Assembly (NCBI GenBank): GCA_017554385.1
Contig: JAFZIL010000007.1
Location: 1 to 38,014, forward strand
Source: Prevotella sp.
Lineage (GTDB): Bacteria > Bacteroidota > Bacteroidia > Bacteroidales > Bacteroidaceae
Length of the DNA stretch: 38,014 nucleotides
Reading direction: 5' to 3'
Position numbers and translations under genes: made by a program. Position 1 is the first letter of the stretch, and every line of letters starts with the position of its first letter. Positions 7,477-35,794 of this stretch are shown one piece after another. The notes beneath the pieces are model-generated. The model was not told the origin of the DNA, ran no database searches, and was given only the letters and a program-made list of their open reading frames with translations.

Positions 7477-7489
7477 ACGAAAAATGATT

Positions 7490-7570
7490 GTAGGGACAGA
7501 CATCGTGTCTGTCCGCAGACGACGGAACGATTACATTTCCGTTTGCGGACAGTCAGGGGTCTGTCCCTAC
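7490..7570. repeat. Imperfect palindrome (REP-like) with 12-bp ends
   Basis: GTAGGGACAGAC at 7490 is matched by GTCTGTCCCTAC ending at 7570, and inside these CTGTCCGCA pairs with TGCGGACAG. On RNA this would fold into a long hairpin in the gap between two same-strand genes. Such intergenic palindromes of the GTAGGGRCAG type occur in many bacteria. It could be a REP-like element or an attenuating or processing site. Confidence 0.65.
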
Positions 7571-7591
7571 TACTTCTAAACCAAATAGTCT

Positions 7592-10111: not shown

Positions 10112-10114
10112 AAG

Positions 10115-16182: not shown

Positions 16183-19100
16183 ATGATGAAACAACTAAAA
16201 AGTTTCTTGAAGCGAGTCGTCCCTACGATGATGCTACTTCTGGGATGTGTGCAGTTGGCACTTGCCCAGGAAGGAGGTGGCATACTCGTTAAGGGTACGG
16301 TCCTTGATGCTACTGGTGAGCCCCTCATCGGTTCTTCGGTTGTGGTGAAAGGGAATACCAGTCTGGGTACCGTAACCGATATCGACGGTAACTTCCAACT
16401 GAAAGTTCCCTCTGAGCAGACAGTGCTGACGTTCTCCTATGTGGGTATGATTTCCAAGGAAGTCAAGGTCGGTAAGCAGCGTACCTTCAAGGTGTCGCTT
16501 GCTGACAACACCAAGCTGGAAGAAGTCGTAGTCGTGGGTTACGGCCAGCAGAAAAAAGCATCGGTGGTGGGTGCCATTACTCAGACCACGGGTGAAGTCC
16601 TTGAACGTGCAGCAGGTATTGGTAGCGTCAGTGCAGCCCTGACAGGTAACCTTCCCGGTATTGCAACCATTGCTTCTACTGGTCAGCCAGGTGAAGAAGA
16701 TCCTCGCATCTATATTCGTGGTGCAGCAGCTTGGAACCAGGACGCACAGCCGCTGATTCTTGTCGATGGTGTCAAGCGTGAGATAAAGTCCGTTGATATT
16801 TCCTCCGTTGCAACGGTGTCAGTGCTGAAGGATGCATCTGCCACAGCCGTCTATGGTGTGGAGGGTGCTAACGGCGTTATCCTGATCACCACCAAGCGTG
16901 GTGTGGAGGGTAAGGCAAGAATCGACGTCGGCTTCAACGCAACGCTGAAGGCAGTGTCAAAGCTTCCTCGTAAGTATGACTCCTATGATGGATACATGTT
17001 ACGCAACCAGGCTATCGAGCATGAACTTGCACTGGGCGGCGATGCATCTTGGGCATACTATCGTCCGCAGACGTTCATTAACAACTTCCGCAACCAGGAT
17101 TATACAGTCAAGCCTCATTATAATGCTGACGGCGGCTACCTTGGTGACTATAGTCAGGCAGAGCGCTATCCAAACATTGACTGGCAGGAAGAGATGTTTA
17201 AGGATTTTACCTTATCTTATAATACTAACCTCAACTTCTCGGGTGGTACGCAGTTCGTGAAGTACTTTGTGGCATTCGACTTCCAGAACGAAGGTGACAT
17301 GACCCGCATCTGGGATAACAACCAGGGTTATGAGGGTGGCTATTCGTACAACCGTCTGAATGTACGTTCAAACTTGGACTTCCAGATTACGAAGACCACA
17401 CAGTTCAAGGTGAACCTGGCTGGTTCGAATGCTCAGAAGAAGGCTCCCCGTACTTATTGGGGTAATGACGGCATGTTCTTCCAGCAGCAGAACTGGGCAG
17501 GTGCATACGGTATGGCTCCGAATATCTTCCCTGTTAAGTTCTCTGACGGCTCGTGGGGTTTCTATCCGTTGGTCTCCAACGTTGCCAACTCTCCAATGAA
17601 CGTCGCTACTGCAGGTTATAACCTGACCACCAATACCCGTATTTTCACTGACTTCTCTCTCGAGCAGAATCTCGACTTCATCACGAAGGGTCTTGTTGCT
17701 CGCGGTACCATCTCATGGGACAACCAGTTTGATGAGGGCGGTCGTGGTATCTCTGATACACACCAGGCAAAGATTGCATACATCCTTCCTGAGGATGGCG
17801 AAATGCTGTGGGATAGTAAATGTATCATCGACCCGAAAACCGGTTTCGATTTCTATGAGCCTCGTGAGTGGTCAGAGCAGTCAGGTAGCGTAAATTCTAC
17901 GAATCGTGCCACGGAAATGTCAGTCCAACTTTATTGGGCACGCCAGCTCGGTGTACACAACGTGTCTCTGATGGGTAACTGGAAGCGTCGTATCAATGCA
18001 GGTAATGCCGACCTCGAGTTCCGTCGTGAAGACTGGGTGTTCCGTACTACATACGACCTGATGGGTAAGTATTTCGCTGAGTTCAACGGTGCTTACAACG
18101 GTTCCCAGAAGTTCTCTCCCGACAACCGTTTCGCATTCTTCTGCTCAGGAGCTGCAGGTTGGATGATTTCGGAAGAGAAATTCATGAAACCTCTGAGGGA
18201 CAAGGGCATCATTGACATGTTCAAGGTCCGCGGTTCTATTGGTGAGATTGGTGATGACAACGCTGGTGACCGTTGGGCATACCTTACGACCTGGTCGGTA
18301 TTGAATGAAGGTAATGGTTACAAGATGGGTCTTGACGGTTCAACGAGCCCGTTTGTTGGCTATAAGGAAGCAAACATTGCCAGCCCCGACCTTCGTTGGG
18401 CAACGGTACGTAAGAAGAACCTCGGTTTCGACTACGCTTTCCTTCATGGTATGTTCGCAGGTAGCTTCGACTACTTCACTGATGACCGTTACGATATCTT
18501 TATCTCCGGTGGTGAGCGTACTGTACCTTCCTACTATGGTGCTGCAAAGACTCCTGACGTCAACAAGGGTGAGATTAAGAACCATGGTTTCGAGTTGGAA
18601 CTTCGCTTTAATAAGGTGCTGAAGAACGGCATGCGTTTCTGGGCTAACACCAACTACACTTTTGCCCGCAACGAAATCATATTAAAGGATGATCCTGAGC
18701 TGATACCTTCTTATCGCAAGGCACAAGGATACTCTCAGGGACAATATGTGTCGTTTATTGATAACGGATATATTGGCACCTATGACGAGCTCTATAGCAT
18801 ACCTGAACGTGATACTAATGACGATCAAGTCATCATTGGTGACCATTATATCGTTGACTTCAATGGCGACGGTAAGGTTGACGTGACCAACGACCAGGCT
18901 CCTTACGGATATACCGGAACGCCTGAGCACACTTACAATGCCACGATTGGATGGGAGTGGAAGGGTTTCTCCTGCTTTGCTCAGTTCTATGGTGTAACAG
19001 GTGTTACTCGTGACGTAGGTCTGGCTTCGTTCAACAACAAGTTGCTTACCGTTTATGACAACGGTGCTTGGTGGAATCCCATCGATAGGACAGGTGACGT

Positions 19101-19386
19101 AGTCGTTCCCCGTTTCACCACTGAGGTGTACTACAACGACGGTACTCAGTACCTCTATGACGGTTCCTACTTCCGTCTTAAAAATGTGGAGGTTGCCTAT
19201 ACATGGACAAAGGGCTGGATTAAGAAGATTGGTTTCTCAAGTCTGAAGGTTTATTTGAATGGTAACAACCTCTTCCTGATTACCAAGATGCCTGACGACC
19301 GTGAGAGCAACTATGGATATAGTGGTGGTGGCGGTGCTTACCCAACTGTCAGACGTTATAACCTCGGATTAAAGCTTTACCTGTAA
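16183..19386 (+). CDS. SusC/RagA-family TonB-dependent glycan transporter (first pair; XusA position)
   Basis: The 1067-residue outer-membrane transporter has a signal peptide (about 1-29, ending LALAQ; ATG 16186 is equally possible) and a carboxypeptidase-regulatory-like domain (about 34-112, VKGTVLDATGEPLIGSSVVV, TDIDGNFQLKV). The SusC linker LEEVVVVGYGQQKK follows, then a plug (about 125-250; LILVDGVKREI, GVEGANGVILITTKRG) and a 22-strand barrel to the end (GLKLYL). It imports oligosaccharides with the SusD lipoprotein as lid, driven by TonB. The codon use (mostly CGT, GGT) suggests high expression. It is the first gene of a seven-gene set. The gene order is that of xusA-E/xyn10 loci for xylan, but the substrate is not proven by sequence alone. 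Confidence 0.95.
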   Translation: MMKQLKSFLKRVVPTMMLLLGCVQLALAQEGGGILVKGTVLDATGEPLIGSSVVVKGNTSLGTVTDIDGNFQLKVPSEQTVLTFSYVGMISKEVKVGKQRTFKVSLADNTKLEEVVVVGYGQQKKASVVGAITQTTGEVLERAAGIGSVSAALTGNLPGIATIASTGQPGEEDPRIYIRGAAAWNQDAQPLILVDGVKREIKSVDISSVATVSVLKDASATAVYGVEGANGVILITTKRGVEGKARIDVGFNATLKAVSKLPRKYDSYDGYMLRNQAIEHELALGGDASWAYYRPQTFINNFRNQDYTVKPHYNADGGYLGDYSQAERYPNIDWQEEMFKDFTLSYNTNLNFSGGTQFVKYFVAFDFQNEGDMTRIWDNNQGYEGGYSYNRLNVRSNLDFQITKTTQFKVNLAGSNAQKKAPRTYWGNDGMFFQQQNWAGAYGMAPNIFPVKFSDGSWGFYPLVSNVANSPMNVATAGYNLTTNTRIFTDFSLEQNLDFITKGLVARGTISWDNQFDEGGRGISDTHQAKIAYILPEDGEMLWDSKCIIDPKTGFDFYEPREWSEQSGSVNSTNRATEMSVQLYWARQLGVHNVSLMGNWKRRINAGNADLEFRREDWVFRTTYDLMGKYFAEFNGAYNGSQKFSPDNRFAFFCSGAAGWMISEEKFMKPLRDKGIIDMFKVRGSIGEIGDDNAGDRWAYLTTWSVLNEGNGYKMGLDGSTSPFVGYKEANIASPDLRWATVRKKNLGFDYAFLHGMFAGSFDYFTDDRYDIFISGGERTVPSYYGAAKTPDVNKGEIKNHGFELELRFNKVLKNGMRFWANTNYTFARNEIILKDDPELIPSYRKAQGYSQGQYVSFIDNGYIGTYDELYSIPERDTNDDQVIIGDHYIVDFNGDGKVDVTNDQAPYGYTGTPEHTYNATIGWEWKGFSCFAQFYGVTGVTRDVGLASFNNKLLTVYDNGAWWNPIDRTGDVVVPRFTTEVYYNDGTQYLYDGSYFRLKNVEVAYTWTKGWIKKIGFSSLKVYLNGNNLFLITKMPDDRESNYGYSGGGGAYPTVRRYNLGLKLYL

Positions 19387-19421: not shown

Positions 19422-19442
19422 ATAATGAAAAGAGATTTAATT

Positions 19443-21485
19443 ATGAAATACAATAATAATATAAAAAACCTTTTGTGTGGTTCACTGCTTCTGTTGGCAG
19501 GCAGTGCATCCTTCACATCCTGCACCGACTGGCTTGACAAGGATCCGGAGTCTATCGTAGGAGAGGATGAGGCATTCAAGAACTACCGCAACTTCCAGGG
19601 ATATATCGAGGAAATATATAGTCTGATTCCCAACAAGGAGACAGTCAACTACTGTACTGGATGGAATATGGGTGATGATGCTGTTCATAACCCAGAAGGA
19701 TATGCCCATATAGACCACCAAGTTGATCTTGGCAACTATCGCGACATTTGGGATGAAAGAACTCCTAAGCAGTGTTGGATTAATGGTGACAGAAGCTCGC
19801 TCTGGAAAAACTCATGGTACTGCATCCGTAAGTGTAATATGGGTATAGAGAACATCAAGTCGCTCATTGGCACTGACGAAGAGCGCGACCTGTTGCTCGG
19901 ACAGATGTATTTCTTCCGTGCATGGTGGCATTTTGAGCTGATGTGCTACTTCGGTGGCCTGCCATACATTGACAAGGCTTTCGATGCAGATATCCCTCAG
20001 CTGCCTCGACTCTCCTTCCAGGAATGTGCCGACCGCTGTGCAGCCGACTTTGAGAAGGCGGCCGACCTCCTTCCTCTGGATCCTCAGGGATGGGATGCGA
20101 CAATTGCCGGTATGCAGACTTCGAGTAAGAACGATCTGCGTATCAACAAGTTCATGGCGCTCTGCTACCTTGGCAAGTGCTATCTCTATGCTGGCTCTCC
20201 GCTCATGAAGGAGTTTGAGAAGACCAAGGACGGTGGTGTTGCCCAGCTTTTAGGTGCCAGCTCCAATGGTAAGACCTATGACTATGATGTAGAGTACTGT
20301 AAGAAGGCTGCTGAGGTTCTTGGTAAGGCTCTCGACATGGTCAAGAAAGGCCAAGTGAGTTACAAGCTTGCCGAATACAGGTATTCAAATATCTATGACC
20401 ATGTGGGCGACGATAATGCAGAATCTTGCTACTCTGAAATATTCTATACATACAAGAAGGACTGGAAACAGCCCGGTTCTACAGAGGCTATCTTCCGTGG
20501 CCTGTCACCTGACGGTAATACATCCAACTGGAACTGCACCAAGATCTTTGGTCCGAAGATAGCTGGTCTCGTGGCTCATGACAATATCATCCATCATCCT
20601 ACGGCCAACCTCGTCGACCAGTACGGTATGGCTAACGGACAGCCCATCTATCTGATAAAGAATGGTGAGTATGTGCTGAATCCTGCCTCTGGATGGGATC
20701 CTGAGCATCCTTTCAAGAATCGCGATCCACGATTCTATCACGATATCGTGTTCGACGGTTTCCACTATGTGCTCAATACCGATGCCTTGTCTGCTGAGCA
20801 GAAGAAGCATGAATACTGTTCTCTTTACACCGGTGGTGCCATGCGAGCTGTTGACAATGGAAGCAGCACCGGCTATTTCATACAGAAGCTTGTCCCTCAC
20901 CAGTGTAACGAAGGCGACAAGTGGTACGATGCATGGGGTGGTGGAGGCCCTCTCCATACTTATCTCCCCTACATGCGTCTTGCCGACGTCTATCTGATGT
21001 ATGCTGAGGCTATGGCTGCCATTGCCCTTGCAAATAACAATGTTACCGACTTCAAGAGTAATAAGGACTATTGCTCGTCGTTTACTGCTGTTGATGCTGT
21101 CAATGCACTTCGCGATCGTGTGAACTCTGATGATTATCCGATGGAACACATTCCGGCTCAGTTCCTTACCTCTCCTCAGGAGTTTATGGATGCTGTTCGT
21201 CGTGAGCGTGCTGTCGAGCTTTCCTTCGAGGGCTTCCGTTGGTGTGACCTTCAGCGTTGGCTTCTCCTCACCGAGCCTCCTTACACTGTGAAATACTCTC
21301 ATGAGTTTGAGCGTTTGGAGTCTGCCGACTGGTTCAAGAGCCACGATCCCAAGGACGCCCAGGTTGCCAACTTCCACAAGGAGGAGCTGATCTCCCGTCG
21401 TTTGGAGTCCAAGCACTACTGGTTCCCGCTTCCTGACAAGGATACTTATCTGTACGAAGGATATAATCAGAATCCGGGATGGTAA
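19443..21485 (+). CDS. SusD/RagB-family surface glycan-binding lipoprotein (first pair; XusB position)
   Basis: From ATG 19443 the protein has 680 residues and a clear lipobox: the hydrophobic LCGSLLLLAG is followed by SASFTSC with C27 as the lipid-bearing residue. ATG 19425 would add six charged residues before it and is less likely. The SusD plan follows: TDWLDKDPES at the start, TPR-like helices (GQMYFFRAWWHFELMCYFGG, FMALCYLGKCYLYAGSPLM), then GYFIQKLVPHQ, YMRLADVYLMYAEAMA, and RRERAVELSFEGFRWCDLQRW near the end, closing YLYEGYNQNPGW. It binds glycan at the cell surface and caps the preceding SusC. Confidence 0.95.
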   Translation: MKYNNNIKNLLCGSLLLLAGSASFTSCTDWLDKDPESIVGEDEAFKNYRNFQGYIEEIYSLIPNKETVNYCTGWNMGDDAVHNPEGYAHIDHQVDLGNYRDIWDERTPKQCWINGDRSSLWKNSWYCIRKCNMGIENIKSLIGTDEERDLLLGQMYFFRAWWHFELMCYFGGLPYIDKAFDADIPQLPRLSFQECADRCAADFEKAADLLPLDPQGWDATIAGMQTSSKNDLRINKFMALCYLGKCYLYAGSPLMKEFEKTKDGGVAQLLGASSNGKTYDYDVEYCKKAAEVLGKALDMVKKGQVSYKLAEYRYSNIYDHVGDDNAESCYSEIFYTYKKDWKQPGSTEAIFRGLSPDGNTSNWNCTKIFGPKIAGLVAHDNIIHHPTANLVDQYGMANGQPIYLIKNGEYVLNPASGWDPEHPFKNRDPRFYHDIVFDGFHYVLNTDALSAEQKKHEYCSLYTGGAMRAVDNGSSTGYFIQKLVPHQCNEGDKWYDAWGGGGPLHTYLPYMRLADVYLMYAEAMAAIALANNNVTDFKSNKDYCSSFTAVDAVNALRDRVNSDDYPMEHIPAQFLTSPQEFMDAVRRERAVELSFEGFRWCDLQRWLLLTEPPYTVKYSHEFERLESADWFKSHDPKDAQVANFHKEELISRRLESKHYWFPLPDKDTYLYEGYNQNPGW

Positions 21486-21522: not shown

Positions 21523-21539
21523 ATAAATATATTATGATT

Positions 21540-24491
21540 ATGAAGAATATAAAAACAAACATATTTCTCTTAGCCATGTTGGTTGCATCGCCACTGACTG
21601 CCAATGCCCAGGAAGCTACCGCAGCACCCGATAGCGTTGCCAACAGCAGTGCAGTTCCTACTGTGGCAAAAAAGAAAGTCCATGTAGCTTTCCGCGACAT
21701 GGATGCGGACCATCTCCTCGGAGGCGTTTCCTATGTCGATATGGAAGAGTTGTCGAAGAAGGATTATACGATGGGCAGTCTTGACGACATGTATGCCCTT
21801 GTCGGCGGATGGAACGGCAACAACCTTTGGGGTATGGACAATGACCGCCTTGACAATAACGACAACGGTAATCTTCCGCTCGTCATCATCGACGGTGTGA
21901 AGCGCCCGTCCAATAACGTGCTTCCTTCTGAAATTGAGCAGGTGACCTTCCTCAAAGGTGCTCAGGCCGTCGTACTTTATGGCTCCAAAGGTGCCAAAGG
22001 TGCTATCCTGATTACCACCAAGCGTGGCAAGGTTGACGGTCTTCGGATTGATGCCAATGCCAACACTGGTTTCCATGTGGCAAAGGAGTTCCCCGAGTAT
22101 ATTGGTTCTGCCGAGTACATGACGCTCTACAATGAAGCTTGCGTGAACGATGCTCTCGCCACTGGACCAAAGTATTCTCAGATGGATATTTACAATCATG
22201 CATCAGGCGTTAATCCTTACCGCTATCCCAACGTCAACTACTATTCTGACGAGTATATCCGCAAGGTCTATAACCGTTCTGATGCTACCGTAGAGATTCA
22301 GGGAGGCGGTACTCGTGCCCACTTCTATACAAACATCAACTACTACCGTTTGGAAGACCTTATCAACTTCGGTAATGCTAAGGACAACTATACCGACCGT
22401 TTCAGTGTTCGTGGTAATGTTGACCTCGTTATCAATAAGGTCATCAAGGGCTATGCTAACGCAAGCGCAACCTTCTACAACGCCCACAAGAACAAGGGTG
22501 ATTTCTGGGGTGAGGCCTCTACCATGCGTCCGAACTTCCCGGAGAATGCAGCACCGCTGATTGACATTAATATGGTCGACCCTAACGCATCCAAAGCCCT
22601 TGCCATCCTTGGCAAGTCGCTCAACCTCCTTGATGGCAGATATTTCCCTGGTGGTACGAAAGCCACCCAGACGAATGCTATTGCCGACTGTTATTTTGGT
22701 GGTAAGACACAAAGCGTGAGCCGTCAGTTCCAGTTCGATGCCGGTATAATCTATGACATGAACAAGTTCGTCAAGGGTTTGTCGTTCAAGACACAGTTTG
22801 CTATCGACTATGCCGGATACTACGATCTTTCGTATAATAACAAGTATGCAGTATTCATTCCCACGTGGAGTAACTATAATTCACAGGATGCTATTGTCGC
22901 TCTTACACAACAGAACGACGAAATCGTGACTGGTCACATGATCATGGATAATGATAGTAAGAAATACCGCCAGACCATCAGTTGGAACGGTCATTTCGAC
23001 TACGACCGTACGTTTGCAGGCAAGCACCATGTAACTGGTATGCTCCTTGGCAATATGTTTACTACTACATCCAGCGGTCAGTATCATCGTTACGCCAATG
23101 CTAACTTAGGCCTTCAGGCAGGTTACGACTTTATGGAGCGCTACTTTGGTGACGTGTCATTAGCTGGCGTACATTCTGCCCGTCTTGCCGAAGGTAATCG
23201 TGAGGCAGTATCCTATTCTTTCACTGCCGGTTGGAATGTCGCCAAAGAGAGTTTCATGAAGAATGTAAGCTTTGTCGATGATCTGATGCTCAGTGCTTCA
23301 TACAGCAATCTGAACGAAGACATTGATGTCTATATGGGTGACACTTATTTCTATCTGTATAGAGCAACATGGGACAAACAGGGTGGTTCGTTCTCATGGA
23401 ATGAAGGAAACAGCACTGACCGTACTTTCTCTAAGTCGGGTAGCAATCCTTCACTCGACTTTATCCACCGCAAGGAATTCTCTGTCACTCTTCGTGGCTC
23501 GTTCCTCAACCGCCTGCTCTCTGCTGAGTTCACATTCTTCAATACCGATTTGGATGGCTTCATTATCCAGAATCCAACCCAGTTCCCATCGTATCTGTCA
23601 GGTGGACTGTCGGGCAGCTCATTCAAGCCTTCCATCAACAACAATATCCAGAACCGCAAGGGTCTTGACTTCAGCGTAACCGCACAGAAGCAGCTGGGTA
23701 AGGTTCATGCTACCCTTGGCGTTGTCGGTACATATCTTACGACAAACTATAAGAAGTACGACGAAATCGTTGACGCTACTGCTCCTTACCAGAACACTGA
23801 GGGCCGTCCTCTCGATGTCATCTGGGGCTACAATTGTCTTGGCTTCTACACAGCCGACGATTTCGACTACAACGAGGCAACAGGCAAGTACACCTTGAAG
23901 GACGGCCTTCCCAAATCCTCGCTCAACGGTAATGCAAACCTGCAGCCTGGCGACTTGAAGTACGAAGACGTAAACGGTGATGGTAAGATTACCAATAAGG
24001 ACCGTGTCGACCTTGGTAAGGACGGCACATACGGTGCTCCTCTCACCCTCGGTATCAACCTCACACTCAAGTATAAGAACTGGACACTCTTTATGATTGG
24101 TAACGGTCAGTTCGGTGCCAAGGCGTTGAAGAACAGCAGTTACTACTTTATGAGTGGCGAAGCTAAGTATTCCGTTAACGCACGTGGCCGTTGGACTCCT
24201 GCAACAGCCGATGCGGCTACACATCCTCGTCTGACTACACTTACCACGTCAAACAACGAGGCTTCTACCTTCTGGCTCTATAGTACAGACCGCTTCAATC
24301 TCCGCAAGGTGCAGCTTACCTATGACTTCCCGAAGGAGATGTTCAACGGGACATGGGTAAAGAATCTCTCCGTCTATCTGAACGGCAACGACCTTCTCAC
24401 TATCTCGAAGAATCGTGATATCATGGAGACGAGCGTCGGTGTTGCTCCTCAGACGCGTTTCTATAACCTCGGCGTAAAGGCCACATTCTAA
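21540..24491 (+). CDS. SusC/RagA-family transporter without the N-terminal carboxypeptidase-like domain (XusC position)
   Basis: The 983-residue protein (985 if ATG 21534 is used) has a signal peptide (about 1-25, ending LTANAQE). A short linker takes the place of the usual carboxypeptidase-regulatory-like domain, and no LEEVVVVGYG segment is present. The plug (about 60-170) shows LPLVIIDGVKRP, EIEQVTFLKGAQAVVLYGSK and GAILITTKRG, and the barrel ends FYNLGVKATF. XusC-type second transporters of tandem systems are likewise shorter than XusA. It should import oligosaccharides with the next SusD. The missing canonical TonB-box region raises the question of how it is energised, though the box can be hard to see. 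Confidence 0.93.
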   Translation: MKNIKTNIFLLAMLVASPLTANAQEATAAPDSVANSSAVPTVAKKKVHVAFRDMDADHLLGGVSYVDMEELSKKDYTMGSLDDMYALVGGWNGNNLWGMDNDRLDNNDNGNLPLVIIDGVKRPSNNVLPSEIEQVTFLKGAQAVVLYGSKGAKGAILITTKRGKVDGLRIDANANTGFHVAKEFPEYIGSAEYMTLYNEACVNDALATGPKYSQMDIYNHASGVNPYRYPNVNYYSDEYIRKVYNRSDATVEIQGGGTRAHFYTNINYYRLEDLINFGNAKDNYTDRFSVRGNVDLVINKVIKGYANASATFYNAHKNKGDFWGEASTMRPNFPENAAPLIDINMVDPNASKALAILGKSLNLLDGRYFPGGTKATQTNAIADCYFGGKTQSVSRQFQFDAGIIYDMNKFVKGLSFKTQFAIDYAGYYDLSYNNKYAVFIPTWSNYNSQDAIVALTQQNDEIVTGHMIMDNDSKKYRQTISWNGHFDYDRTFAGKHHVTGMLLGNMFTTTSSGQYHRYANANLGLQAGYDFMERYFGDVSLAGVHSARLAEGNREAVSYSFTAGWNVAKESFMKNVSFVDDLMLSASYSNLNEDIDVYMGDTYFYLYRATWDKQGGSFSWNEGNSTDRTFSKSGSNPSLDFIHRKEFSVTLRGSFLNRLLSAEFTFFNTDLDGFIIQNPTQFPSYLSGGLSGSSFKPSINNNIQNRKGLDFSVTAQKQLGKVHATLGVVGTYLTTNYKKYDEIVDATAPYQNTEGRPLDVIWGYNCLGFYTADDFDYNEATGKYTLKDGLPKSSLNGNANLQPGDLKYEDVNGDGKITNKDRVDLGKDGTYGAPLTLGINLTLKYKNWTLFMIGNGQFGAKALKNSSYYFMSGEAKYSVNARGRWTPATADAATHPRLTTLTTSNNEASTFWLYSTDRFNLRKVQLTYDFPKEMFNGTWVKNLSVYLNGNDLLTISKNRDIMETSVGVAPQTRFYNLGVKATF

Positions 24492-24559: not shown

Positions 24560-24579
24560 TTAAAAACAAATTGAAGATT

Positions 24580-26400
24580 ATGAAGAAAAGTAATATTATA
24601 TTGTGTTTCATCGGTCTGCTCGCTTTCTGCTCGTGTCAGGATATTTTCGAGCCAGCTGAAGAAAACAAGCGTCAGTTGGACGACTTGACCGAGGAGTCGA
24701 AGTATGCACATGGTCTGCTGATGTATGGCTACGACCGTCTGCCATATATCACGACCACTCAGACCGATGTTGCTACTGACGATGCTGTTACCAACTCGAA
24801 GACCAGCAATTATCTGAATATGGCTACCGGTACATGGGCATCTGACAACGACCCCATGTCGCAGTGGGACAACTGTAAGGACGGCATCCAGTATGTCAAC
24901 CTCTTCTTCACTATAGCCGATAAGGTAAAGTGGGCTCCGCGAGCAGCTTCGAAGCAGCAGATGTTCATCGACCGCCTGAAGGGTGAAGGTTACGCACTCC
25001 GTGCCCTCCTTTATTTCTATCTTCTTCAGGCCCATGGCGGCTATGCCGATGACGGTGTGCTCTACGGTGTGCCTTTGCTGACCACTCCCGAGGACGGTAG
25101 TTCCGACTTCAATCAGCCACGTGCAACGTTTGCCGACTGTGTGAAGCAGTGCTTTGCCGACTGTGACAGCGCAATGGCTCTTCTCCCTGTAGATTATGAA
25201 GACCTTGCGACGAAGGATAATATTCCTGAAAAGTATCAGGCTCTTGGAGCTGAATTCTCGAACTACAACCTGATATTCGGCAGCAAGTCGAAAGGCCTTA
25301 TTTCTGGTAGGATTGCCGAGGCTATAAAAGCTCAGATAGCACTTCTTGCCGCCAGTCCTGCTTTCCGTGACCAGAGCGGTGTGACGTCTGAACAGGCTGC
25401 TATCCTTTGCGGAAATGTGCTCAAGCGTATTGATGGATTGAATGGCTTTGACAAGACCGGTAACAGAAACTGGTTCAAGTCATCTTTCAAGTCAATGATT
25501 GAGACGGCACCCAATCCTGAGATCCTTTGGCGCGAGGACCGTCATAAGAATGCTGAGCAGGAACGTGAAAACTTCCCGCCGACTCTCTATGGCAGCGGTC
25601 GCACCAATCCGTCGCAGAATCTTGTTGACGCATTCCCCATGCGCAATGGTCGTCCTATCACCGATCCGGCTTCTGGCTACGATCCGAAGAATCCTTACGC
25701 CAACCGCGACCCGCGTCTTGAAATCAGTATACTTTATAACGGAAGAACTCTTAGAAAGACTGAAATCATCACAGGAACCTATCCTAACGAGAATAACGAG
25801 ACTGACGATAATCTCAACAAAATTGAGAAATCCACACGTACGGGATATTACCTCTTGAAGCTCCTTCGTGACGATGTGAGTCCGCTGTCCAGCTCTCTTA
25901 TCGAACAGCAGCACATCTATCCCCGCATCCGTTATACCGAGATGTTCCTTGCATACGCCGAGGCAGCAAACGATGCTTGGGGACCGAAGACCGACGGTGC
26001 TGGTGTGGGCATGACTGCTTACGACGTGATCAAGGCCATTCGTGAACGTGCAGGACTCGGTACAGACGAATTTTCGATGCCGCTCGCTGAAGGCGATGCC
26101 TATCTTGAAGAGTGTGCCGGCGACAAGACAAAGATGACCAACCTTATCCGTAACGAGCGTCGTCTTGAGCTCTGCTTCGAGAACAAGCGCTTCTGGGACC
26201 TCCGTCGTTGGCTGCTGCCACTGGATGAAACAGTGAAGGGTATGAAGATTGAACGCGACGAAAAGACTGGTGAGCTTTCTTACACCGTTATTGACGTTGA
26301 GGAGCGTAAATACGACAACTCTTATCAGTGCTATGGTCCGATTCCTAAGGGCGAAATGCTGAAATGGAGCAACCTTAAGCAAAATAAGGGATGGAAGTGA
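24580..26400 (+). CDS. SusD/RagB-family surface glycan-binding lipoprotein (second pair; XusD position)
   Basis: The 606-residue protein starts MKKSNIILCFIGLLAFCSCQ, a lipoprotein signal with C19 as the probable lipid site (C17 is an alternative); a TTG start at 24571 would add three residues but is not needed. SusD features are GEGYALRALLYFYLLQAHGG, VPLLTTPEDG, ISGRIAEAIKAQIALLAASP, IYPRIRYTEMFLAYAEAAND, NERRLELCFENKRFWDLRRW, and the end KQNKGWK. It is the lid and glycan binder for the second SusC, which ends 88 bases upstream. Both SusDs are clearly different proteins, not a recent duplication. Confidence 0.95.
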   Translation: MKKSNIILCFIGLLAFCSCQDIFEPAEENKRQLDDLTEESKYAHGLLMYGYDRLPYITTTQTDVATDDAVTNSKTSNYLNMATGTWASDNDPMSQWDNCKDGIQYVNLFFTIADKVKWAPRAASKQQMFIDRLKGEGYALRALLYFYLLQAHGGYADDGVLYGVPLLTTPEDGSSDFNQPRATFADCVKQCFADCDSAMALLPVDYEDLATKDNIPEKYQALGAEFSNYNLIFGSKSKGLISGRIAEAIKAQIALLAASPAFRDQSGVTSEQAAILCGNVLKRIDGLNGFDKTGNRNWFKSSFKSMIETAPNPEILWREDRHKNAEQERENFPPTLYGSGRTNPSQNLVDAFPMRNGRPITDPASGYDPKNPYANRDPRLEISILYNGRTLRKTEIITGTYPNENNETDDNLNKIEKSTRTGYYLLKLLRDDVSPLSSSLIEQQHIYPRIRYTEMFLAYAEAANDAWGPKTDGAGVGMTAYDVIKAIRERAGLGTDEFSMPLAEGDAYLEECAGDKTKMTNLIRNERRLELCFENKRFWDLRRWLLPLDETVKGMKIERDEKTGELSYTVIDVEERKYDNSYQCYGPIPKGEMLKWSNLKQNKGWK

Positions 26401-26442: not shown

Positions 26443-27648
26443 ATGATGAAACTAAAGAAGTATATATACGGTGTAGCTCTGGGTGCTTTCGCTCTCTCAT
26501 TTGCTTCTTGCTATAATGCAGATAAGGAGTTCCCAGACTATGAAGGAGGTACGACAGCCTACTTCGCTTATCAGTATCCGGTACGTACGCTCGTGCTTGG
26601 TAACGACATCTACGACAATACGCTCGACAACGACCACAAGTGCCGCATCTGGTCTACAATGGGTGGCGCTTATGGTGGTCGCGACGCAGTAGTAGACATT
26701 GCTGTCGACGAGACGCTTTGTAATAACCTGTGGTTTGTCGATGCCGGTGGAAACCCAGCAACTCAAGTGCTTCCCTTGCCCGCATCCCATTATAAGCTGC
26801 TGTCCAACAGCATCCCCTACAATGGCGATCCTCGCGGCTATGTGGAAGTTCAGTTTACTGACGCTTTCTTCAACGATCCCAAGTCAGTGGAGAACACTTA
26901 CGTCATTCCGCTCGTGATGACGGGTGTCACAGGCATCGACCATATTCTTACCGGTACTCCTCGCGAGGGTCTCACCCCCTCTCGCACGAATACCGAGGAC
27001 TGGGAAGTCCTTGCCAAGGACTATGTCCTTTACTGCGTGAAGTATATGAACCCCTGGCAGGGAAAGTATATCCGTCGTGGTGTGGATCAGGTGACAGAGA
27101 ACGGCGTTACTACAGAGGTGGTACGCAAGGACTTCAAGCTTGTCAACACCGATCTTGAGCATTACACTGAGAATCCTGTCAACCAGAACGATGAGGTTTG
27201 TGGCATCGTCACCCGTAACATGACGCAGTCGGTGTTCCCCGTCTATGTCAATATAGGTAAGGATGCAAATGGCGATGCAAGGCCTTCTCAGCTTTGCAAC
27301 CTCGTTCTCACCTTCAATGATGGCAAGTGCACCATCTCCAACGACGATACCGAGATTCCTTCTACCGGTTCGGGAGAGTTCATCGTGAAGGGTACAGAGA
27401 AGCCCGAGTACAAGGACTACCAGTGGGGAACGATGAATGGTGAGCCTGTTCAGCGTGACATCCTCCGTCTGGCCTACAATGTGACCTTCAAGAAAGGCAG
27501 AGTCATCGGTACAAAGATGGTAAAAGGCAAAGAAGTGGATTGGGTTCTCGAGAACGACGTGACGGTCTCGACCAACGATACGCTTGTTGTTCAGACCCGT
27601 GAGTCAAACAAGAAAGAATTCTTCTCACCCAAATACGTGAAAGAGTAA
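26443..27648 (+). CDS. DUF1735/DUF5627-like surface lipoprotein (XusE position)
   Basis: The 401-residue lipoprotein has the lipobox FALSFASC with C23, then YNADKEFPDYEGG. AYFAYQYPVRTLVLGNDIYDN, VDIAVDETLCNN, VLPLPASHYKLL, VEVQFTDAFFNDP and TYVIPLVMTGVTG follow the beta-sandwich pattern of the DUF1735 domain, with a C-terminal part (about 200-400) like DUF5627 proteins. Such proteins stand after tandem susCD pairs and are thought to bind glycan at the surface; no enzyme motif is seen. In xylan loci this slot is xusE. It is co-transcribed with the susCD genes. Confidence 0.8.
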   Translation: MMKLKKYIYGVALGAFALSFASCYNADKEFPDYEGGTTAYFAYQYPVRTLVLGNDIYDNTLDNDHKCRIWSTMGGAYGGRDAVVDIAVDETLCNNLWFVDAGGNPATQVLPLPASHYKLLSNSIPYNGDPRGYVEVQFTDAFFNDPKSVENTYVIPLVMTGVTGIDHILTGTPREGLTPSRTNTEDWEVLAKDYVLYCVKYMNPWQGKYIRRGVDQVTENGVTTEVVRKDFKLVNTDLEHYTENPVNQNDEVCGIVTRNMTQSVFPVYVNIGKDANGDARPSQLCNLVLTFNDGKCTISNDDTEIPSTGSGEFIVKGTEKPEYKDYQWGTMNGEPVQRDILRLAYNVTFKKGRVIGTKMVKGKEVDWVLENDVTVSTNDTLVVQTRESNKKEFFSPKYVKE

Positions 27649-27695: not shown

Positions 27696-29366
27696 ATGAA
27701 GCGTAATAATTTTTTAATTTTTAAATTATGTCATTGTTGCATTGCAGCGACTGTTATGCTGCTTGCTGCGTGTGCCGACTATAACGAGACGGACAATTTC
27801 TCTGCTGAGCCTGATCCCTCTTTCGTAGAACCTTACAAGGATTTGGCTCCTGTCAAGTCGTATATCGACAGGAACACATATCCAAACATGACTCTTGGCG
27901 CTACCCTCAAGGTTGCCGACTTCAACAAGCAGGAGCTGGCCCATGCCGTTGCTATGACCAACTTCGACAATGTTGCCTTCGGTACGACCCTTATGTCGGG
28001 TGCTATCGTCAATAGCAAGGGTGTGATGAACTTCCTCGACATGATGGATCTTCTTGACCATGTCGAAGAAATCGGTGGCGAGGTGTTTGGCAGCCCTATC
28101 GTTGCCAACACCAACCAGGCCGACGATTGGCTGAACTATCTCACGGCTCCTATCGAGGTGGTCGTCGACTATGTTGAAGGAAAGACAGTCGACTTCAACA
28201 CCATGTCCGTAGGCGCTTATGATGGTACTATTGAGAAAGGTAAGGCTGCTATCGTCAAATACGACAGTCAGAACGTACTCCAGGTCTCTCCTTCATCCAG
28301 TGTCCGTATCATTGAGGGCTTCGAAGTGAATCCTCTGGCAAAATACACCACGACATTCTGGGCAAAGGCCGACAAGGAAATCAACTACGACATCAATTTC
28401 TCAGGCACTGCTGTTACTGGTTCCGGCACCAATGGAACGTGGGTGCTGAAGCCGGGCAAATGGACCAAGGTCGTTGTAGAGGCACAGAGCGCTCCCGACG
28501 TTACCGACGGCTACTTGTCCATCGTGACTGCCCGTGGTATCACTATCAATATCCAGAAGGTCCAGGTGGGCTACTATCCTGACAACCATCGTCCGCAGAC
28601 AGAAAAGGAGAAGACCGATACCATCAACTATGCACTCAACGCATGGTGCGACGGTCTGATGAAGATCAACGCCGGTCGTATCAAGTCGTTCGACCTTATC
28701 GACGAAGCCATCGACTCAAAGGCAACGCTCGATAATGGCATGCTCGACCTCAAGCACTCTACCGATAAGATTTTCTGGCAGGACATCCTCGGCAGCGAGA
28801 ACTATGCTCCCGTCGTGTCGAAGGTGGCAAGTGCCGCATTCGAAAAGCATGGCGGAAACGTTGAAGAGCTGAAGTTCTTCATCAGTGAGGCAGGTCTTGA
28901 CAAGCAGAACAAATTCGAGAGCCTCAAATACTGGATTGGTATCTGGGACGGCAAGGGAGCAAAGATTGATGGTATCAATGCCAAGCTTGACCTTACCTTT
29001 AGCGAGGATGCTGACAAGCAGGCTGCAAACGTGGCAACCCTCAACACGCTTCTTGACAATCTTGCAACTACGGGTAAACTCATCCGCCTGTCAAACTTCG
29101 ACATCAAGTATCAGGATGCATCAGGCGCCAATGTCACGGCTAAGGATATTACCGATGAGCAGCGCCAGAAGCTGGCCGACTACTATGGCTACGTCATCAA
29201 GAGCTATATGACCAAGATTCCGCACGACAAGCAGGCTGGCATCTGTAAGGGCAACATGTCCGACACGGGCGATCCTGTAGGTCTCTGGGCTATCGACACC
29301 AAGAGCAAGGACTGGGTGCGCACGGCTACCTACAAGGCCTTCTGCGATGCGCTCAGCGGGAAGTAA
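27696..29366 (+). CDS. GH10-like lipoprotein with inserted binding module, probable pseudoenzyme
   Basis: The 556-residue lipoprotein (lipobox MLLAAC, C26) has a GH10 frame split by a beta module. Residues 64-150 match the first GH10 strands (MTLGATLKVADFN, MNFLDMMDLLDHVEEIGGEV), an inserted CBM-like module takes about 152-296, and the rest of the barrel follows (INYALNAWCDGL...SFDLIDEAID...GINAKLDL...IRLSNFDIKY). Xyn10 enzymes of Bacteroidetes carry binding modules inserted at the same place. However, catalytic motifs are changed: the ENxxK region reads GTTLMSG, HxLVWHxQ reads SPIVANTNQ, WDVVNEA reads FDLIDEA (E337 kept), QxH reads KLD, and TELD reads SNFD, so the nucleophile is N467. Xylanase activity is therefore very unlikely; binding of glycan at the surface is inferred. 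Confidence 0.8.
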   Translation: MKRNNFLIFKLCHCCIAATVMLLAACADYNETDNFSAEPDPSFVEPYKDLAPVKSYIDRNTYPNMTLGATLKVADFNKQELAHAVAMTNFDNVAFGTTLMSGAIVNSKGVMNFLDMMDLLDHVEEIGGEVFGSPIVANTNQADDWLNYLTAPIEVVVDYVEGKTVDFNTMSVGAYDGTIEKGKAAIVKYDSQNVLQVSPSSSVRIIEGFEVNPLAKYTTTFWAKADKEINYDINFSGTAVTGSGTNGTWVLKPGKWTKVVVEAQSAPDVTDGYLSIVTARGITINIQKVQVGYYPDNHRPQTEKEKTDTINYALNAWCDGLMKINAGRIKSFDLIDEAIDSKATLDNGMLDLKHSTDKIFWQDILGSENYAPVVSKVASAAFEKHGGNVEELKFFISEAGLDKQNKFESLKYWIGIWDGKGAKIDGINAKLDLTFSEDADKQAANVATLNTLLDNLATTGKLIRLSNFDIKYQDASGANVTAKDITDEQRQKLADYYGYVIKSYMTKIPHDKQAGICKGNMSDTGDPVGLWAIDTKSKDWVRTATYKAFCDALSGK

Positions 29367-29480: not shown

Positions 29481-31685
29481 ATGAAGAAATTATTTACTCT
29501 TGTTGCTCTCTTGACATGTTTCTTGGGAGTAAAGGCAGAGGAGGTCGTCGATCTGGACTTGGATCTCACGACTGTTACTGCCGACAATTGGCAACATGGT
29601 TGGGTGTCGGAGGAAGCTGCAGCTTACCTCTCATTCGACAGCGATGGTCTCCATTTCACCAATGAGGAGGCTAAGTCTCAAAGATACGAAATCCAGTTCC
29701 AGCCATTCCCTGGCATTCAAAATCTGGATAATGATGCTTCCTACACCATCAGTATTACCATTAAGGGATCTGTTGAAGGAGGCGTTGACGCTTATTTCTC
29801 TGGTTCTAACACTCCCGGTACTATGAATGTCACAACAGAATGGCAGACCCTGACGTTCGAGGATTGTAAGAACAATCCCAACGCAGAGTACTTTGCTAAT
29901 TCTGCTTCTGTGCTCATCCAGTGCGGTGACTTCGTAGGTGACTGGTGGATTTCCCACGTGAAGATTACCCACGACGAGAAGGCTCCTACTCGTCCCGTAG
30001 AGTGGCTCGAGCAGCTCACCAATGGTAATGCAGAGTCTGCATGGCCCGCATGGGCTCTTGAGGAGACCGATGGTGTCAACATCAACTGGCGTGGTGACCG
30101 TACAGGCGAGATTTGCGCATGGTCTCTGCAGATGGGTACGAATAACGACTCTGGTATGCGCGATGGAAGTGAACTGGATGGCAGAGCACGTCCTTTCCCC
30201 GCTACCATCGTTGCTGACCCCGATAATGCTTCTAACCATGTCTTCATGGTTGATGCAAGCCAGATTGAGAAGATCGATGATGACAACTCTATCCAGTGGT
30301 CTAACCAGTTCTGGATCCAGTCTCCTAAGGGCTGGAAGGAAGGCACCAAGGTAAAACTTCACTTCCGCTATAAGGCAGAGGTTCCCGCCAAGGCAGCTAC
30401 ACAGATCCACAAGCAGAACCCCTCTGACTATCTGCACTATGTTGGTATAGGTGACGTGAACTTCACCGAGACCTGGCAGGATTTTGACAAGGAATTCACA
30501 TTCGATGCCAGTCAGGCCACGGGTTGGTCTGTCGCATTCAACCTTTGCGCCGATTCAAAGGTCGATGCTCCTCAGCCCGCTAATAAGTTCTATTTCGACG
30601 ACCTCTCTTGGCAGGTCATGAAGCTTGATGAGGGCTACTTCGTTGCTTCTTCTAACTCTACCACCGGTATTGAGTACGACTACGACAACGCTATCGAGTT
30701 CGTAGCTGGTGAAGATCCTGATGGCGGTGAGTGCCTGGTTGCTACCGTTGGTACTGCTGGTAAGGAGGATACTTGGGTTAATCAGCTGATGATTTCTACC
30801 GTTCGCGGTGAGACTGCTTCGTTCAAGGGCGCTACCATCAAGCCCACTGGCAATATCAAGGGCAATGACAAGGACAACTGGCAGATCTATGCCGCTGGCT
30901 CGCAGTATAAGATCGATCTTCCCGCAGCCGGTGTATGGCAGATCTTTATTGCTCCTGAGGAGAGCCAGATTCTCTTCATGATGGTCGAAGGCGAGGAAAT
31001 CGTTGAGAAGGAACCAATTGATATCGTTACCAACCAGACCGCAGTTGTTGTTCATGGTCAGGAGCGCGACTGGCGTGGAACCGACAACGATGGTAACCCC
31101 ATTGAAGAGGAAGTTGGCGAGGGTCAGCCTTGGGACAACCAGTTCTTCATCTTTGCTAACCGCACACTTGCTAAGGGCACTGAAACCGTTCTGAAGTTTA
31201 AGTATAAGGCTTCTGTTGAGGCTCGTACAACCACACAGTGCCACGGCGCTCCTGGCGCTTACATGCACTGGGAAGCCATTCACGACGTGATCTTCACTGA
31301 GGATTGGCTGGACTTCGAGTATGACTTCACTGTTCCCAATGAGGCAGACGGCATGCAGTGTATCGCTTTCAACATGGCTGAGATCAAGGAGGCTTGCGAC
31401 TACGAGCTTACGGATTTCCAGTGGTATCTGAAGGACGAGACTCTCGAAGAGGGTAAGACCTACGAGAACCTGATTAACGAAACAGGCGCTGATAACTTCT
31501 ACGTGAAGGAAGGTGCCGGCACCGCCCCACGCATCTTCGGTACCGATCCCGAGGAGGATGGCATCAGCAGCGTAGTGGCTAAGAGCAACGTTTCTACCGC
31601 TACCTTCAACCTCGCTGGCCAGCGTGTTGCTAACCAATACAAGGGCATCGTCGTTAAGAACGGCAGAAAGTCTATCAACAAGTAA
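29481..31685 (+). CDS. Secreted protein with repeated carbohydrate-binding-type beta domains
   Basis: The 734-residue protein has a signal peptide (about 1-19, ending GVKA) and no lipobox. Several jellyroll modules of the CBM4/9/22 type are suggested: about 22-165 (LTTVTADNWQHGWVSEE), about 175-385 and about 515-680. The last two share an internal repeat: FWIQSPKGWKEGTKVKLHFR near 277 and FFIFANRTLAKGTETVLKFK near 555, followed by HYVGIGDVNFTETWQDF and HWEAIHDVIFTEDWLDF. Between them (about 388-510) is a different beta region ending WQIFIAPEESQILFMMV. The tail FNLAGQRVANQYKGIVVKNG with KSINK is a common Prevotella C-terminal sorting-like end. No catalytic domain was seen. It closes the locus, before a strong terminator, so it probably helps bind the same glycan. 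Confidence 0.75.
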   Translation: MKKLFTLVALLTCFLGVKAEEVVDLDLDLTTVTADNWQHGWVSEEAAAYLSFDSDGLHFTNEEAKSQRYEIQFQPFPGIQNLDNDASYTISITIKGSVEGGVDAYFSGSNTPGTMNVTTEWQTLTFEDCKNNPNAEYFANSASVLIQCGDFVGDWWISHVKITHDEKAPTRPVEWLEQLTNGNAESAWPAWALEETDGVNINWRGDRTGEICAWSLQMGTNNDSGMRDGSELDGRARPFPATIVADPDNASNHVFMVDASQIEKIDDDNSIQWSNQFWIQSPKGWKEGTKVKLHFRYKAEVPAKAATQIHKQNPSDYLHYVGIGDVNFTETWQDFDKEFTFDASQATGWSVAFNLCADSKVDAPQPANKFYFDDLSWQVMKLDEGYFVASSNSTTGIEYDYDNAIEFVAGEDPDGGECLVATVGTAGKEDTWVNQLMISTVRGETASFKGATIKPTGNIKGNDKDNWQIYAAGSQYKIDLPAAGVWQIFIAPEESQILFMMVEGEEIVEKEPIDIVTNQTAVVVHGQERDWRGTDNDGNPIEEEVGEGQPWDNQFFIFANRTLAKGTETVLKFKYKASVEARTTTQCHGAPGAYMHWEAIHDVIFTEDWLDFEYDFTVPNEADGMQCIAFNMAEIKEACDYELTDFQWYLKDETLEEGKTYENLINETGADNFYVKEGAGTAPRIFGTDPEEDGISSVVAKSNVSTATFNLAGQRVANQYKGIVVKNGRKSINK

Positions 31686-32564: not shown

Positions 32565-33926
32565 TCAATCCTTACTGACTTTCCAGGGATAATCGTTGGC
32601 ATCGGCATCGGGGTTTGCCTTGACAGAGTAGCCCGATGGGATGGTGACATTGCCGTAAGTTCTTGGATCGTTTTTGAACTTACCGCCATAGATTATGTAA
32701 GGCCCACGTGATCGCCCTGCCGGTGGATTTTTAGCGCTTAAGGTGTTGAAATATCCACCGTAGATGGTCGCCGTGCCAGCAGGCACGTTGTCAGGCGTAT
32801 AGTTACAGATGCCACCGTAGTAGGTTCCACCTATGATGCTGCAGTTATGGCCATCGATATAGGCATTTTGATAGACGGTCATGTTCTCCATGATTACGTT
32901 TCCAAGGTATCCGTCATTATATTGACTATTACCGTCGACCTCTTTTTCTACCGTGCCGTTACGAAGTGTCACGGTTCTGCCCGCAACGTTGTTTTGCACA
33001 TAAACATTTACTGTGGAAGAATAACCGTTGAAGTCTATCACACCATCGGCCCGCGTTATTTTATAGGGATTTGGTGTGGAGACGTTAGCATTCAAGACGA
33101 GCACCGGATTCGTTTCGGTTGTAGTATTCCAATCGGCGAGGTTGGTATAGACATCCTTCGTCTTTGACATCTTAACCGTGACGGTGTAGTACTGTCCGTT
33201 GGTGAAAGTAACGTTTTCTCTCTCAAAATCATAGACACCTGAGAGGGAGGTGGCGTTCAGGCTGACAGTCTGATTGCTGAAGCCGGGGATGGCTACGTAG
33301 ATGATGTTGGTAGTCGTAGCGGGGTTGACGCTGTAGGTGTTGGTACCGTCGCTGATGGTGAGGTTCGTGGCGTTGACTGGCGTGGTGCCGTCTACATCGT
33401 CGAGAAGGGTGAACTTCACGATGGCCTGCTGGTTCTGGAAGCTGACAGCGTTGGCAGCGACCATGCCGCCTGAGCTGACGGCAGTGACGGTGGCTGTAGC
33501 GGTGGCATAGTCGTAGTTTTGGGCGATGTCCTCAAGGGTGCCCTTCTGTCCGATGTAGGTGGGCACGTCTCTCTTGGGGTAGTATAGGGTCAGCTCGTCG
33601 TCGGTGGCGATGGTCACACCCGAGAGCGTGCCCTTCAGCGTGGCGGTGGCTCCGTCGGTCTGTGGCTGTAGCGAGCCATTGGCCCACCTTGTGCCCTTCT
33701 TCACATATATATGATCTGTGGTGGCCCATGAGGCGTTGATGGTCGACCCGTTGAGCGCGAGGGCGCGGGTGGTCATGCTCTTCGCTGTCTCTACAGACAG
33801 GGTATAGGTTCCCTTTTGCACCTGCTGCTCGTCTAATAGGTCATCATCTCCTGAGCAGGATGTGAGGGCAGTCCCTGCCATCAGCAGCGCTGCGATTGCT
33901 TGTATTGTCAACTTCATTGCTTTCAT
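32565..33926 (-). CDS. Fimbrillin-family lipoprotein with C-terminal beta-repeat module
   Basis: The 453-residue lipoprotein has lipobox GTALTSC (C24), an acidic spacer, then SMTTRALALNGSTINASW. The N-terminal half (about 40-270) is fimbrillin-like: WATTDHIYVKKGTRW, DDELTLYYPKRD, AIVKFTLLDDVDG, YVAIPGFSNQTVSL, TFTNGQYYTVTVKM. The C-terminal part (about 285-440) has strand repeats with glycine turns (SIIGGTYYGGICNY, TIYGGYFNTL, IIYGGKFKNDP), which suggests a right-handed beta-helix or similar. R54 in TTRA could be the site where such proteins are cut for donor-strand pilus assembly. It is the last gene of the minus-strand pilin cluster, 15 bases after the one upstream. Confidence 0.8.
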   Translation of the reverse strand: MKAMKLTIQAIAALLMAGTALTSCSGDDDLLDEQQVQKGTYTLSVETAKSMTTRALALNGSTINASWATTDHIYVKKGTRWANGSLQPQTDGATATLKGTLSGVTIATDDELTLYYPKRDVPTYIGQKGTLEDIAQNYDYATATATVTAVSSGGMVAANAVSFQNQQAIVKFTLLDDVDGTTPVNATNLTISDGTNTYSVNPATTTNIIYVAIPGFSNQTVSLNATSLSGVYDFERENVTFTNGQYYTVTVKMSKTKDVYTNLADWNTTTETNPVLVLNANVSTPNPYKITRADGVIDFNGYSSTVNVYVQNNVAGRTVTLRNGTVEKEVDGNSQYNDGYLGNVIMENMTVYQNAYIDGHNCSIIGGTYYGGICNYTPDNVPAGTATIYGGYFNTLSAKNPPAGRSRGPYIIYGGKFKNDPRTYGNVTIPSGYSVKANPDADANDYPWKVSKD

Positions 33927-35675: not shown

Positions 35676-35697
35676 TTCGTATTTCTTTTTTTCTTGT

Positions 35698-35776
35698 GCC
35701 GCTGACCGCCAGCGAAGCGGTCAGCCTACACCATGTAGGTTTCCGGGCATTACGCTCTAAGTTGCCCGGCAGCGGC
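35698..35776 (-). promoter_or_regulatory. Multi-hairpin element between two fimbrillin genes
   Basis: Three adjacent hairpins are present: GCTGACCGC/GCGGTCAGC (35701-35725), CCTACA/TGTAGG (35725-35739) and CCGGGC/GCCCGG (35743-35769). The outer sequences GCCGCTG (35698-35704) and CAGCGGC (35770-35776) are also complementary and share bases with the first hairpin, so a cloverleaf and an alternative fold compete. It lies between a stop and the next start on the minus strand. Confidence 0.65.
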
Positions 35777-35794
35777 TGTTTTAGCCCCCTAAGA

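Follow-up and report, generated by a model that had tools for sequence, protein, structure and literature searches.

An inactive relative of the GH10 xylanases is known from B. ovatus, where the surface lipoprotein BACOVA_03431 of PUL-XylL is similar to GH10, is inactive on xylans, has lost its nucleophile, has a disrupted -2 subsite, and yet binds BGX (glucuronoxylan) and CX (corn xylan) (Rogowski et al., 2015; PMC4491172). That paper calls it the first naturally inactive GH10 on record and likens it to dead GH18-type chitin-binding lectins. BACOVA_03431 is assigned to the core xylan cluster in an excerpt of PMC4855328, and the available part of a 2024 review repeats the case (PMC11610566). 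We recognised no further published inactive GH10 in a literature search of freely accessible journal papers. The inactivated, interrupted GH10 Pm25 also still binds xylans, mostly via its CBMs, and the same source, as far as accessible, gives the gene order xusABCD-xusE-xyn10C (PMC7848910), which matches the cassette analysed here.

The cassette, its neighbours and the psGH10 protein

The window, by which we mean the whole stretch of 38,014 nt analysed (Prevotella sp., assembly GCA_017554385.1, contig JAFZIL010000007.1, positions 1-38,014, forward strand), contains genes in the SusC-SusD-SusC-SusD-XusE-GH10 order of the Xus core cluster. Its GH10 relative, psGH10, occupies the Xyn10C slot of this Xus xylan cassette and, judged by its residues, is not an active Xyn10C. 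The same cassette order is also found in loci with an active slot GH10. The genes are as follows:

16183..19386, plus strand: SusC-like TonB-dependent transporter 1 (XusA position), 1067 aa; Pfam Plug and CarbopepD_reg_2, synteny in related loci
19425..21485, plus strand: SusD-like lipoprotein 1 (XusB position), 686 aa; Pfam SusD_RagB, 1.7e-44
21534..24491, plus strand: SusC-like transporter 2 (XusC position), 985 aa; synteny, and Pfam Plug at 4.4e-05, barely above cut-off
24571..26400, plus strand: SusD-like lipoprotein 2 (XusD position), 609 aa; Pfam SusD_RagB, 3e-48
26443..27648, plus strand: XusE-like lipoprotein (BT_3987-like_N and DUF5627, both Pfam), 401 aa
27696..29366, plus strand: GH10 pseudoenzyme psGH10, 556 aa, predicted lipoprotein
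29481..31685, plus strand: P734, exported, with three CBM4-like beta-sandwich modules

The sole PDB match of the XusE-like lipoprotein is 3n91 (E 2.1e-56), which is named BACOVA_03430 in the accessible part of PMC4491172. No second close copy of SusD-like lipoprotein 2 was found in the window's own genome (81% complete). Farther out, three large proteins encoded in succession at 4075-12100 show matches to HYDIN-like Ig, MAM-like, PEGA and Omp28, two fimbrillin-like (Mfa_like_1) genes lie on the minus strand at 33942-36733, and an exported-looking 453-aa protein with no Pfam match (32565-33926) adjoins them.

The psGH10 protein is divided into these parts:

27696..27773, plus strand: signal peptide and lipobox ending at lipidated Cys26 (codon 27771-27773), then acid-rich CADYNETDN; from the sequence
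27828..28157, plus strand: GH10 barrel part 1, residues 45-154, strands 1-3; AlphaFold2 DSSP, structural alignment
28158..28586, plus strand: inserted beta-sandwich module, residues ~155-297; DSSP, profile similarity to modules of P734 homologs
28587..29363, plus strand: GH10 barrel part 2, residues 298-556, strands 4-8; Pfam, DSSP, structural alignment

The first-pass annotation had proposed a GH10 fold with a binding module after the third strand, and had suggested overlaying a predicted structure on a GH10 xylanase. The fold and the place of the insertion held up: Pfam PF00331 matches residues 305-506 above cut-off, and AlphaFold2 DSSP and the structural alignment retain the (beta/alpha)8 barrel with its insertion, so that a non-GH10 fold is ruled out. 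When psGH10 alone was compared with PDB sequences by phmmer, there were zero matches up to E=1, while the family profile did match; an NCBIfam scan returned nothing up to E=1. The insert has no Pfam CBM match, and its likeness to Xyn10C-type CBMs comes from DSSP and profile similarity only. Two sequence sets were defined, A1 with 52 of the 80 homologs introduced below plus the window and one active relative, and A2 with the window and 41 P734 homologs.

P734 follows the dead GH10 directly in 80/80 loci. Pfam gives no hit for it up to E=1; its modules are beta-sandwiches similar to Xyn10C-type CBMs and resemble a xylohexaose-binding CBM. Its C-terminal end is matched by no model but resembles a type IX sorting tail.

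No xylan enzyme adjoins the cassette within the window itself. Downstream of the cassette, xylan-type enzymes are present in all four window-type loci scanned (L003, L041, L050 and L130, taken from the 80 fetched loci plus the census loci) and comprise GH10, GH115, GH43, GH3, GH5 and acetylesterase types. The raw list of further GH10s holds 28 ORFs in 24 loci, mostly P734 homologs (via the module insert) or parts of esterases; a true further GH10 occurs in just 8/80 fetched loci (flanks of up to 10 kb), and the partner xylanase is therefore mostly unlinked. Three related loci (L172, L173, L178) have an intact-motif GH10 ORF of ~1300 aa immediately after P734. The window's own genome encodes four other GH10s with intact motifs, two of them inside an enzyme cluster (G000:C28, ~1-45 kb, L238-L240) that also includes GH3, GH2, GH43, arabinofuranosidase, GH97, GH31 and esterases. 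Judged by its ORF sizes and by the Pfam matches of 10 of its ORFs, this cluster has no SusCD pair; thus, transport and cutting seem to be unlinked in this genome.

Active-site residues and their conservation

We compared the window protein with 25 active GH10s in the same slot of other genomes and with 1i1w. All 25/25 active rows agree at the nucleophile, the acid/base, the His of GHTL, the WH pair, QxH, the first two residues of NDY and the Trp of strand 8. At four of the key positions psGH10 has:

28704..28706, plus strand: Glu337, acid/base position (NEA to DEA); E in 75/81, covarying with residue 430
28983..28985, plus strand: Lys430, replacing Gln of QxH; probable charge partner of Glu337
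29094..29096, plus strand: Asn467, nucleophile position (SELD to SNFD); N in 80/81
29247..29249, plus strand: Lys518, invariant new strand-8 residue beside G519; K in 81/81

Thus, of the two catalytic Glu of GH10 xylanases (strands 4 and 7), E337 is present and the nucleophile position holds N467, as the first-pass annotation had read it. Its statement that the ENxxK, HxLVWHxQ and QxH motifs are replaced was likewise confirmed against the active slot rows: D336-E337 stands for NE, S133 for the His of GHTL, A137-N138 for WH, K430 and D432 for QxH, S397-E398-A399 for NDY, M100 for the Lys of NxMK, and G519 for the strand-8 Trp (W in 25/25 active rows, G in 74/81 dead rows). The Gly that replaces the first Glu of ENxxK is common to 25/25 active slot enzymes too. 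Subsite roles (-2, -1, +1) were taken by motif from the P. copri GH10 table in the accessible part of PMC8631079, and we infer that they carry over to psGH10, in which nearly all glycone-side residues are gone. E398, although present in 81/81, was rejected as a stand-in nucleophile by alignment, which places it on strand 5, in register with the Asp of NDY, and not on strand 7.

The homolog set consists of the best 80 of 86 confirmed loci, which with the window gives 81 rows of 47-93% pairwise identity. Titles name Prevotella, Prevotellaceae, Bacteroidaceae, Bacteroidales and one Muribaculaceae, mostly MAGs or "uncultured", with many of ruminant origin; only the title of Prevotellaceae bacterium MN60 lacks such a mark. 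The alignment, which the first-pass annotation had named as a check, shows the active-site losses to be conserved: the nucleophile position holds N in 80 rows and D in one (L063), with no Glu in any of the 81; M100, S133, N138, E398, K518 and the retained D469 are constant (81/81), A137 and D336 occur in 79/81 and K430 in 76/81. At C26, too, 97% or more of the 81 rows agree. Across 14 changed pocket positions the mean majority frequency is 0.90, whereas the remaining barrel positions average 0.81, a modest excess that random sets reach with P=0.037; the inserted module averages 0.65. The median Nei-Gojobori dN/dS among the 40 closest pairs (39 computable) is 0.10. Taken together, the conserved replacements and the low dN/dS indicate that the old site was refilled and not left to decay; full-length homologs and a dN/dS of ~0.1 rule out a pseudogene or frameshift.

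E337 was proposed as the sole surviving catalytic residue. It is indeed present in the window, but it appears to be kept as the charge partner of K430 and not as a catalyst. Residues 337/430 are E/K in 75 rows, K/E in four (L069, L070, L072, L073), G/Q in one (L026) and D/K in one (L034). L115 has R/E and belongs to the same sub-branch as the four K/E rows (67, 71, 64 and 65% identity, respectively), so the charge swap was probably a single event in that sub-branch and the double loss in L026 another. Since opposite charges survive the swap and both residues are uncharged in L026, E337 looks constrained by its charge and not by acid catalysis. This covariation favours a salt bridge that spans the dead cleft and could be purely structural, and it speaks against a catalytic acid.

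Proposed role in xylan capture

Our best explanation, to which we give a probability of roughly 0.72, is that psGH10, a GH10 xylanase without catalysis, has been retained as a surface xylan-capturing lipoprotein (SGBP). A selected non-catalytic role, as suggested at first pass, is supported as the best reading by the nucleophile absent in 81/81, the conserved refill and the dN/dS of ~0.1. The case for capture is made because BACOVA_03431 binds xylan without activity and inactivated Pm25 keeps its affinity for xylan. The shared cassette order, the xylan-type enzymes downstream in related loci, the other intact GH10s of the genome and the P734 modules add to it, whereas the empty slot in G155 described below, the scarcity of linked GH10s and the lack of a xylan enzyme beside the cassette in the window count against it; surface location, xylan as the ligand, absence of catalysis and hand-over to SusCD are what we infer from these data. 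Under this model, lipidated Cys26 would probably tie psGH10 to the outer membrane, and decorated xylan chains would be held close to the SusD lids by the rebuilt GH10 cleft together with the insert, with P734 adding binding modules beside the two SusCD transporters. Cutting would be left to GH10, GH43, arabinofuranosidase and esterase enzymes encoded elsewhere in the cell. With nearly all glycone-side residues gone, binding by the cleft could be weak, or its ligand could be different.

Xylan might instead be bound through the inserted module only (with P734), the dead barrel serving as a scaffold or a docking surface for SusC, SusD or XusE. The demolished glycone subsites would agree with such an arrangement, as would Pm25, in which binding is described as largely CBM-driven in the part of PMC7848910 available; we nevertheless consider it unlikely, because a pocket somewhat more conserved than both the remaining barrel and the insert fits a site in use better.

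It is less probable still, and in our judgement doubtful, that the old site was rebuilt (M100, S133, N138, D336, E398, K430, N467, D469, K518) for a new ligand or chemistry, making psGH10 an enzyme or receptor for something other than the xylan backbone. The replacements are conserved in 76-81 of 81 rows and the pocket exceeds the rest of the barrel in conservation, which speaks for it; against this, the excess is modest, the one GH10-type acid still present, E337, gives way to K, G or D in 6/81, the context genes are of xylan type, and the known analogue is inactive on xylans.

Origin, frequency and comparison with known systems

Having no nucleophile, standing after XusE and carrying a lipobox, psGH10 shares the general description of BACOVA_03431. 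As loci of that type we took L167, L168 and L170, with L166 and L169 added by motifs or tree. L167 has a XusE-like neighbour with a 3n91 match at 5e-146, and the slot is followed by GH30 in L167 and L170 (weak Pfam scores) and by GH98 in L168.

Locus trees were built from SusC1, SusD1, SusC2, SusD2 and XusE of 52 loci; BACOVA_03431 itself is not in the trees. The window clade enters with 15 (earlier trees, including the GH10-domain tree) or 10 (both five-gene trees) of its 81 rows. L166, in which only XusE is present, was left out of the locus trees, and redundancy or near identity removed L066, L072, L006, L062 and L040 from the first five-gene tree and additionally L127 and L222 from the 52-locus tree. 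SusC2 of L221 and of L244 is split over two ORFs, and one piece was used.

One dead clade (SH-aLRT 100) unites L167, L168, L170 and L169 with L134, L135, L244 and L278-L280. The window clade is sister to the active L175/L176 (SH-aLRT 97), within a set that includes the active L281, L282 and L231 (99, 100). We consider it very unlikely that the window clade and the BACOVA_03431-type proteins are one family from one ancient loss. In AU tests (LG+G4, all groups named after seeing a tree), joining the two clades was rejected with five genes (p=0.0009, and p=0.0002 with more loci), and the window clade groups with the active loci just named; with three genes (SusC2, SusD2, XusE), a clade joining the window, the BACOVA_03431 type, L134 and L135 was not rejected (p=0.175). 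The window clade thus apparently arose separately. This also bears on the question, raised at first pass, of whether the relatives form a described family: one such protein, BACOVA_03431, is in print, but the window clade is separate from its type on the five-gene tree.

Isolated dead slot GH10s also occur between active loci. At the nucleophile position, L181 has Gly, L226 has Ala, L233 has Asp and L277 (read as L252) has Gln; the acid/base is Asn in L226 and Asp in L233 and L225. For L225, which keeps its nucleophile, and L277, which keeps its acid/base, "dead" is a prediction from the residues. The locus tree needs seven changes to account for the dead GH10s, all forced by well-supported branches, and five of the seven dead groups are single sequences. 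Placing all 25 dead rows then known in one clade was rejected (p=3e-44); holding L181 with the BACOVA_03431-type rows was rejected at p=0.019 only. On the GH10-domain tree, made from an earlier set without motif columns and in which the long branches L134 and L233 meet, six changes are needed (bootstrap 5-7) and strong branches force just two. We read these changes as losses because an active ancestor is assumed, which is natural because the GH10 catalytic residues are common to the active rows.

To estimate frequency in the genus, we searched 200 genomes drawn from it, the window's own included, with the window's SusD2 as the query (E <=1e-60) and scored at most the six best candidates per genome (at most seven or three in the companion genome searches), so that further cassettes can have been missed. 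At least 75 matches fell in 68 genomes, 34 of window type (>=60% identity) and 41 others (<=55%). Among the former, 31 have a dead GH10, none with a nucleophile Glu (the sequence from G153 is identical to L070), two lie at a contig end, and one (G155) has no GH10 after XusE; among the latter, 28 are active at both positions, seven are dead and six are cut or gapped. Dead slots thus make up 38/66 readable ones among the candidates scored in this sample. A window-type match and an active slot (the 28, plus two cut ones with visible motifs intact) occur together in 0/200 genomes, a zero overlap with a one-sided Fisher p=0.002 that is post hoc, uncorrected for kinship and incompleteness, and confined to the candidates scored.

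Six genomes (G030, G033, G038, G052, G129, G155) have two matches of different kind, with a dead slot GH10 in each, and G196 has two truncated copies. Two Xus-type cassettes with at least one dead slot GH10 are seen in G052, G030, G038 and G129 (L278, L279, L280 and L244, respectively); the second slot is active in the first three, a pairing of an active with an inactive surface GH10 that B. ovatus also has. In the window-type cassette of G155 (L245, G155:C51), the contig continues after XusE with opposite-strand genes and neither GH10 nor P734; the second cassette of this genome has another dead GH10 (L135), followed by GH98. The empty slot implies that the protein is not indispensable in G155. 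That it marks a decaying gene heading for loss is scarcely credible against full-length homologs in many species, identities down to 47% and a median dN/dS of 0.10.

New in this analysis are the apparently separate origin of the window clade, the repeated loss in the slot and how often dead slots occur in the genus, together with the charge pair at 337/430 and the three-module protein P734 that goes with psGH10. With a second, apparently separate clade of ~80 homologs and the additional single cases, loss of catalysis in this slot looks like a repeated route. Tentatively, the Xyn10C slot could be a recurrent birthplace of pseudoenzymes in which the window-clade pocket (S133, N138, E337-K430, E398, N467, D469, K518) recognises another ligand, for example a side-chain or ester decoration, or supports new chemistry; we would not put this forward as the likely outcome. 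Whether surface glycan binders of Xus-type systems arise from the systems' own enzymes is now testable, as is what E337-K430 and the rest of the refilled site do. In addition, GH10-based xylanase counts in such genomes would probably be inflated, since Pfam calls psGH10 a GH10 above cut-off.

Compared with known systems, the window agrees with the Xus core cluster (xusA-B-C-D-E, xyn10C) in all six genes, both in kind and in order, but it has no active xylanase, by residues, in the xyn10C position and a conserved three-module protein next to it. The active interrupted xylanases Xyn10C, BACOVA_04390 and BiXyn10A share with psGH10 the slot, the fold and an insertion after strand 3, which in them consists of CBM module(s), whereas active slot enzymes, unlike psGH10, keep both Glu and the subsite His, Trp, Asn and Gln (25/25 rows at most positions). 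The GH18-type lectins, to which we liken psGH10 by description only, are a dead hydrolase fold reused for binding, as proposed for psGH10, in another family and with another ligand. The closest counterpart is BACOVA_03431, which is also a lipoprotein and a GH10 relative without a nucleophile, in the slot after the SusCD pairs and a XusE-like protein; GH10s of its type differ from psGH10 in having Asp at the nucleophile position and a length of ~740 aa, and they fall into a different clade when the loci are placed on the tree.
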